From contig NZ_CP036291.1 in NCBI RefSeq assembly GCF_007750855.1, forward strand, positions 2,170,001 to 2,234,000: 64,000 nucleotides of DNA, read 5' to 3'. Source of the stretch: Pirellulimonas nuda (GTDB lineage Bacteria; Planctomycetota; Planctomycetia; Pirellulales; Lacipirellulaceae). Position 1 is the stretch's first letter, and each line of letters starts with the position of its first letter. Shown piece after piece: positions 20,784 through 22,050 of the stretch. The position numbers and the translations under genes were made by a program. Under the pieces are notes generated by a model that was not told where the DNA came from, did no database searches, and was given only the letters and a program-made list of their open reading frames with translations.

Positions 20784-20812
20784 TTGCGTTCCACGACGCG
20801 GTAGCCGATACT
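20784..20812 (+). promoter_or_regulatory. Candidate sigma-70-type promoter for the aro leader
   Basis: TTGCGT (20784-20789) and GATACT (20807-20812) are separated by exactly 17 bases. A start site about seven bases after the -10 would fall at the A of the leader ATG (20819), so the leader would be translated from a leaderless transcript; no ribosome-binding site is visible before it. Prediction from sequence only. Confidence 0.45.
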
Positions 20813-20818
20813 AACAGC

Positions 20819-20890
20819 ATGAGCTGCAACGCTTGGCGATTTTGGTGCTACTTTACCAGCCCGGTTCCCGGGGCCGGAGGTTGTGCCTAG
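20819..20890 (+). CDS. Aromatic-rich leader peptide upstream of DAHP synthase
   Basis: This is a 23-codon ORF (ATG 20819, TAG 20888). Codons 6 to 12 encode WRFWCYF, giving two Trp, two Phe and one Tyr in seven residues, followed by a Pro/Gly-rich tail. It sits directly upstream of a strong intrinsic terminator and of the first gene of aromatic amino-acid synthesis. Clustered codons for the pathway products are the hallmark of attenuation leader peptides such as those of trp and phe operons. The peptide itself would have no function beyond being translated: stalling at these codons when charged tRNAs are scarce would sense aromatic amino acids. No homologue can be checked here. Confidence 0.75.
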   Translation: MSCNAWRFWCYFTSPVPGAGGCA

Positions 20891-20957
20891 ACGCTGCGAG
20901 CGACCAGACCAACAATCCAAACCCCGAGAACCACCCTGGTTCTCGGGGTTTTTTTGT
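20860..20957 (+). promoter_or_regulatory. Attenuator RNA: mutually exclusive antiterminator and terminator
   Basis: Leader segment 20863-20873 (GGTTCCCGGGG) differs at one base from the terminator 3' arm segment 20938-20948 (GGTTCTCGGGG). It can therefore pair with the terminator 5' arm at 20922-20932 in 10 of 11 positions. The same segment can also fold on itself (CCCGG 20860-20864 with CCGGG 20868-20872). A ribosome stalled on the Trp/Tyr/Phe codons at 20834-20854 would leave it free and favour antitermination; a ribosome reaching the stop at 20888 would cover it and let the terminator form. The pairings are seen in the sequence; the switching is inferred. Confidence 0.7.
20920..20957 (+). 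terminator. Rho-independent terminator inside the aro leader
   Basis: A perfect 14-bp stem (20920-20933 with 20937-20950), a CCC loop and a run of T residues through 20955. It lies 30 bases after the leader stop codon and about 80 bases before the DAHP synthase start, so it would cut transcription off before the gene. Confidence 0.88.
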
Positions 20958-21036
20958 TGTCTTGACGCAAGGCAGGCAAGCCCAGCGGGCCGCGTCCGCA
21001 GATGACTAAAAACTAACCCCTAACGCCTGAATCCCA

Positions 21037-22050
21037 ATGATTGTTGTTATGAAACGTGGCGCAAGCCAAAAGGACATCGACCACATGATCTCGCAAGTAG
21101 AATCTCTCGGACTCAAAGCCAATGTGCTGCACGGCACCGAGCGCACCGTGATCGCAGCGATCGGCGACGAGCGCGTTAACGGGGTGCAAAGCCTCGAGAG
21201 CTCGCCCGGGGTCGACTCGGTGATGCCCGTCCTGGCGCCCTACAAGATGGCCAGCCGCGAGGCGCACGACTGCACCTCCGTGGTAAAGGCCGGCTCGCTC
21301 ACGGTGGGCGGCGCAAGCGTTGGGGTGATCGCCGGCCCCTGTAGCGTGGAAGACGAAGAGCAGATTGTCGCCTCCGCCAGGGCGGTCAAGGCGGCCGGCG
21401 CCACGGCGCTGCGTGGCGGCGCCTTCAAGCCCCGCACCAGCCCCTACAGCTTCCAAGGCCTCAAAGAGGAGGGCCTGAAGATGCTGGCGACCGCCCGGGA
21501 CGAAACGGGCCTCGCGGTCGTGACCGAGGTGATTGCGCCGGAGGACGTCGACCTGGTGGGCGAGTACGCAGACGTGCTGCAGATCGGCGCCCGCAACATG
21601 CAGAACTACCGCCTGCTGGAGGCCTGCGGCCGCAGCCACCGAGCGGTGCTGCTCAAGCGCGGCCCCAGCGCCACGCTGGACGAGATGCTGCTCGCGGCGG
21701 AGTACATCCTCGACGGCGGCAACAGCCAGGTGATGCTGTGCGAACGGGGCGTGCGGACGTTCGAGAGCCACACCCGCTTCACGCTGCCGCTGGCGACCGT
21801 GCCCTACCTGCACGAGAAGACGCACCTCCCCGTGGTGGTCGATCCCAGCCACGGCACCGGTCACACGAGCCTTGTGACCGACATGGCCAAGGCGTCCGTC
21901 GCCGCGGGCGCCGATGGGCTGATTATTGAGGTCCACCCCTGCCCCGAGAAGGCCAAGAGCGACGGCTACCAGTCGATGACGTTCGACCAGTTCGACGCGA
22001 TGATGAAGGCCTGCCGACGCGTGGCCGAGGCGGTCGATCGCACGATGTAA
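21037..22050 (+). CDS. aroF: 3-deoxy-7-phosphoheptulonate (DAHP) synthase, type I-beta
   Basis: This 337-residue cytoplasmic enzyme condenses phosphoenolpyruvate and erythrose 4-phosphate, the first step of the shikimate pathway. The barrel shows [37 protein letters not shown] and [10 protein letters not shown], which are substrate and metal-binding segments of the family. The first 70 residues ([18 protein letters not shown]) form the ferredoxin-like regulatory domain typical of the I-beta type with Tyr/Phe feedback control, as in Thermotoga. No ribosome-binding site is obvious before ATG 21037. The aromatic leader peptide and terminator directly upstream suggest a second, transcriptional layer of control. 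Confidence 0.95.

Follow-up and report, generated by a model that had tools for sequence, protein, structure and literature searches.

A candidate ribosome-mediated attenuator with Trp, Tyr and Phe codons upstream of the DAHP synthase gene in Planctomycetota

Introduction

Does the short, aromatic-rich open reading frame in front of a DAHP synthase gene of the planctomycete Pirellulimonas nuda set the transcription of that gene, and if so, by what kind of device? The locus lies in a stretch of 64,000 nucleotides (the window; contig NZ_CP036291.1, positions 2,170,001 to 2,234,000). A sequence-only reading of this DNA had noticed a leader ORF, a terminator and a segment able to pair with it, had called the arrangement the textbook design of the trp and phe attenuators, and had set the conservation of the small ORF and of the alternative pairings in relatives beforehand as one of its tests. 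In E. coli, trpL and pheL each respond to one amino acid, stand before branch genes, have leaders initiated at Shine-Dalgarno (SD) sequences and use an established 1:2 hairpin. A survey from 2010 stated that leader-peptide attenuation was known only in Proteobacteria and Actinobacteria, to which it then added Firmicutes (PMC2965389). We found no planctomycete leader-peptide attenuator in the open-access papers searched, which agrees with the earlier statement that no case was described in this phylum.

Results

We first describe the parts of the locus, which are collected in Table 1. The coordinates given before were all exact, and a 23-codon ORF with Trp6, Phe8, Trp9, Tyr11 and Phe12, that is, five aromatic residues in seven codons, was confirmed between a promoter-like site and the terminator, upstream of the DAHP synthase gene. 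The product of this gene matched NF006421 (E 3e-145) and TIGR01361 (E 4e-112) and is of the B. subtilis type. The core of the 5' arm of the terminator, 20922-20932, doubles as the 3' strand of an antiterminator, and GGTTCCCGGGG differs by exactly one base, as claimed, from the 3' arm of the terminator, GGTTCTCGGGG (20938-20948). Folding of the RNA spanning leader to T-run gave a z of -4.8. An Rfam search of the element returned sub-threshold matches only, and a T-box or other Rfam cis-regulatory RNA was rejected as there was no match near the gathering score. The terminator has a near copy with 86% identity at G000:C1:161343-161379, which hints that such terminators may be shared or mobile.

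Table 1. Features of the aroF leader region of P. nuda (window positions) and sets of aroF loci in other genomes.
Feature	Position or loci	Strand	Remarks
Predicted sigma-70-like promoter	20784..20812	+	TTGCGT (20784-20789), 17-nt spacer, GATACT (20807-20812)
Leader ORF MSCNAWRFWCYFTSPVPGAGGCA	20819..20890	+	23 codons, ATG 20819-20821, stop TAG 20888-20890; read from sequence, kept in relatives
Aromatic codon cluster W-R-F-W-C-Y-F	20834..20854	+	predicted stall sites
Possible self-hairpin CCCGG-TTC-CCGGG	20860..20872	+	20860-20864 with 20868-20872; role not supported
Antiterminator 5' strand GGTTCCCGGGG	20863..20873	+	10/11 pairs with 20922-20932
SD-like GGAGG	20876..20880	+	7 nt before leader stop codon
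Intrinsic terminator hairpin	20919..20951	+	15 pairs, 3-nt loop; T-run 20949-20955
aroF-type DAHP synthase (3-deoxy-7-phosphoheptulonate synthase)	21037..22050	+	regulated gene, predicted
Pirellulales aroF loci without aromatic leader	L052, L056, L064, L067, L079, L086, L089, L093, L095-L098, L101
aroF loci beyond the phylum with leader, terminator and antiterminator-like duplex	L255, L258, L300, L302, L304, L305

To follow the element through the phylum, we collected the sequence upstream of aroF orthologues in whole genomes at four ranks of relationship: family, order, class and phylum. Of the 39 loci examined in the same family, 37 had an aromatic leader ORF with a terminator behind it, with leaders such as MSNKYRYFWFSFTPPGSGAGGDA and MQSKFWYYFWFSFTHPGSGVGGCA, and the arrangement was also found across Planctomycetota, where other orders carry different yet equally aromatic leaders, for example MSEPVQNSGSIARFWFSYRFWYSHRDHGVG and MNGSTYWFAYFYFFGGHTAA. 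The peptides diverge widely between families and have mainly their aromatic content in common. Among 168 aroF upstream regions of 350 nt each, an ORF with at least five aromatic residues in nine occurred in 65%, compared with 1.8% of dinucleotide shuffles; at six in nine, the values were 53% and 0%. Control residue sets gave 1-5%, with the exception of Ile/Leu/Met (20%). Some Pirellulales aroF loci had no aromatic leader within 700 nt, and the presence of several such cases in one family (f7) suggests lineage-specific loss. At L171, L174, L184 and L189, in distant planctomycete relatives, aroF has a distinct type of leader, e.g. MKSLIKSYFIFCYFRYYHKRGRS, and the terminator stem is shorter and richer in A/T.

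The alternative pairings were conserved and covarying as well, as the earlier reading had required. In 48 aligned leaders compared with shuffles, the antiterminator was paired at 79.7% versus 75.9%, with 24 versus 8.3 double-changed cells and a covariation score of 0.184 versus 0.121, and the terminator scored 0.311 versus 0.161; kinship among the sequences inflates such shuffle statistics, and the figures are to be read as support, not as probabilities. When the partner of the antiterminator was slid out of register, pairing dropped to 30-53%. For 122 distinct leaders of the phylum, the leader strand bound the terminator arm of its own species at -23.6 kcal/mol, the arms of other species at -18.5 kcal/mol, and a shuffled strand gave -15.2 kcal/mol. 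The proposal that 20863-20873 is the antiterminator strand was supported by covariation and by the preference for its own arm. One position of the duplex is mismatched (C-A in the window, G-A in many relatives), which shifts the balance from the antiterminator towards the terminator. The terminator usually starts about 20-36 nt past the leader stop codon in relatives.

We then considered how the leader is expressed. Six bases separate GATACT from the leader ATG in the window, which places the predicted transcription start at the A of the start codon. In Pirellulales leaders, CTTGC lies at a near-constant distance from the leader start, mostly 36-37 nt, and the gap between the -10 box and the start codon is mostly 6-7 nt. 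An upstream SD-like 5-mer was found in none of 82. This absence together with the spacing of the -10 box predicts leaderless initiation, the transcription start coinciding with the start codon or adjoining it.

The locus combines an ORF rich in codons for the pathway products, an intrinsic terminator, an overlapping antiterminator and a pathway gene downstream. On the basis of sequence and modelling, it is very probably a ribosome-mediated transcription attenuator that responds to how much charged Trp-, Tyr- and Phe-tRNA is available. Transcription would start at or beside the leader AUG, with a ribosome trailing the RNA polymerase. When any of the aromatic aminoacyl-tRNAs is short, the ribosome would wait in the aromatic cluster and leave 20863-20873 free to pair with the emerging 20922-20932; with the antiterminator formed, no terminator would arise and aroF would be transcribed. 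Under good aromatic supply, the ribosome would move on into the final ~10 codons and to the stop, cover 20863-20873 and let the terminator form, so that transcription would end. The GGAGG may pair with 16S rRNA and keep the terminating ribosome near the stop.

To examine this scheme, transcripts ending in the terminator loop were folded with the ribosome footprint masked at each codon. In this model, which is thermodynamic, uses truncated RNA and an assumed footprint and whose outcome kinetics could alter, 106 leaders formed a mean of 12.3 antiterminator pairs with the ribosome at an aromatic codon; this dropped to about 5 with the ribosome 4-9 codons ahead of the stop, and a ribosome at the stop itself gave 8.2. 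The leader in the window formed 12-13 pairs with the ribosome at its aromatic codons, 0-2.5 with it at codons 17-23 and 4.5 with it at the stop. In the 106 leaders, the aromatic codons cluster between 9 and 23 codons ahead of the stop and thin out where the modelled ribosome would begin masking the antiterminator strand. A modelled ribosome at the stop blocked the antiterminator only in part, and untranslated RNA still formed it (mean 10.75 pairs), suggesting that failed translation may give read-through, unlike in E. coli trp. In only 18 of the 106 leaders was there a difference of more than 3 pairs from the untranslated and the at-stop states alike.

GGAGG near the end of the leader ORF was found in 62 of 82 Pirellulales leaders, compared with an expectation of 0.04 each. 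The distance from its end to the stop codon is 7 nt in 45 leaders and 4 nt in 13, and the 3' end of the P. nuda 16S rRNA contains CCTCC. The first Gly codon at this site is GGA in 46 of 59 leaders; in two window genes, GGA accounts for 12 of the 164 Gly codons. Several leaders keep GGAGG despite a differing reading frame. Codon choice and frame changes suggest that the nucleotides are selected, and a constraint on the peptide only was rejected on these grounds. A start site for a second ORF was also rejected, since 55 of 59 cases had no ORF or a one-codon ORF. Intragenic SD-like motifs have been reported to extend ribosome footprints on the 5' side (PMC6377232). A serious though still tentative idea is that GGAGG acts as a built-in brake, pairing with 16S rRNA and keeping the terminating ribosome on top of the antiterminator strand. 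When the rear edge of the modelled ribosome was moved beyond 15 nt, the mean number of antiterminator pairs at the stop changed from 7.4 to 7.0-7.3, and in the window leader from 4.5 to 1.7-3.9; this small change means that a longer footprint alone lends the brake weak support.

Finally, we looked for the element at other loci. A covariance model gave full-length matches before leuA (2-isopropylmalate synthase) besides aroF, and most additional matches of model R1 were terminator-only. In P. nuda, a leucine-rich leader ORF and a terminator lie about 90 nt before leuA (G000:C1:1088277-1088394, minus strand; L220), and similar leuA arrangements occur in nine relatives (L221-L229). These leaders, for example MPILLLCLLLVSLSRKALGR and MPNLLLSLLLLLPPSSRP, have the same layout as the aroF leaders, and would constitute a second candidate attenuator in planctomycetes, for which we found no report. 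That the layout recurs with codons suited to the downstream pathway argues strongly, and independently, for reading the aroF element as an attenuator. Within P. nuda, no such leader precedes the DAHP synthase paralogue (L103, G000:C1:5164058), no aromatic leader was seen upstream of either of two TrpE-type matches, and no terminator stands before the stronger of these. Outside Planctomycetota, an aromatic leader with a terminator precedes DAHP synthase genes in relatives of Geobacter and Pelobacter and in other deltaproteobacteria, several of which have strong antiterminator duplexes. Bryobacter shows the same arrangement as a weaker case, and candidates from Calditrichota, Anaerolineae and one from Acidobacteriota failed the antiterminator duplex test.

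Discussion

Two other readings accept the attenuator and differ in how it works. It might respond mainly to Phe and Tyr, whose codons lie nearest to the antiterminator strand, with the Trp codons being minor. Phe codons are indeed the commonest in the 106 leaders (406 F, 220 Y, 153 W), and the C. glutamicum aroR-aroF attenuator, as far as its published description goes, answers to Phe and not to Tyr limitation with both codons present (PMC11802643). However, Trp occurs in 99 of 106 leaders, which is hard to explain without selection, and nearly the same number of antiterminator pairs formed in the model at W (12.6), Y (12.4) and F (12.0) codons, so we regard this as possible while leaning against it. 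The equal effect of the three codons and the presence of all three in 97 of 106 leaders support instead a sensor of three aromatic aminoacyl-tRNAs; of the earlier suggestion that one leader senses all three amino acids, the codon content has held, and the sensing is predicted from it. It is rather unlikely that the element is a classical four-segment attenuator of the trp type, in which a 1:2 self-hairpin would shield the terminator on ribosome-free RNA. The hairpin of Table 1 is able to form, and some relatives appear to carry a longer one with an inserted Phe-rich loop, but pairing in 48 relatives was the same as in shuffles (69.1% in both), without covariation, and the antiterminator beat the self-hairpin in the folding of free RNA. 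The lack of covariation makes a classical protector hairpin doubtful here, and the self-hairpin (P1) was dismissed as the key switch. The earlier detail that 20863-20873 also folds on itself thereby found no support; the textbook comparison is borne out for leader, antiterminator and terminator, and fails to find backing for the 1:2 hairpin.

The remaining readings deny the attenuator itself. We consider it very improbable that the leader encodes a small protein conserved for its function, or an arrest peptide, and is not a codon-reading device. A C-terminal GAGG peptide motif is widespread in the order Pirellulales, as such a protein would predict, yet the underlying GGAGG is kept as nucleotides, in other frames too, and the peptides vary strongly between families. 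Hardly any credit can be given to an ordinary terminator next to a chance ORF, with aroF transcribed from its own promoter: near copies of the terminator hairpin do exist elsewhere in the genome, but ORF, promoter spacing, antiterminator and terminator are conserved together.

The proposed three-aromatic attenuator resembles known systems in its logic. The C. glutamicum aroR-aroF attenuator also has a leader peptide before a DAHP synthase gene, and stalling at aromatic codons raises transcription there, the same stalling logic as proposed here; compared by its published description, it belongs to another phylum, has a Phe-Tyr-Phe leader in place of Trp, Tyr and Phe, and responds to Phe (Neshat et al. 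2014; PMC11802643, PMC4046766). In Acholeplasma, uORFC-13-1 is a computationally predicted uORF with one or more Phe codons before a terminator stem and aroF, based on 24 sequences from one genus plus environmental DNA (PMC8632094); it has a ribosome-binding site, whereas the planctomycete leader is predicted to be leaderless and carries all three aromatics. Leaderless attenuator RNA that starts at the leader AUG is known from trpL (peTrpL) of S. meliloti, which encodes 14 residues and precedes trpE (PMC10117765); in planctomycetes, such a start is predicted from sequence. The logic of leader peptide, antiterminator and terminator is shared with E. coli trpL and pheL, and the aroF leader differs from these in serving the common first step, in having no covarying 1:2 hairpin and in its conserved GGAGG. 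Attenuators in front of DAHP synthase genes have been described before, outside planctomycetes, and the element reported here appears to be a new form of ribosome-mediated attenuation, spread across the phylum.

In summary, our results would extend leader-peptide attenuation to Planctomycetota. If the brake exists, termination would occur only once the leader peptide is complete, in a ribosome-masking attenuator that works without a 1:2 hairpin and lets transcription read through when the leader is not translated, the reverse of E. coli trp. Judging by the aroF leaders of deltaproteobacteria, the strategy seems to be much more widespread than the literature we found records. E. coli uses separate isoenzymes and repressors at the first aromatic step (PMC11802643), and in planctomycetes this shared step stands under what looks like a single sensor for all three products.
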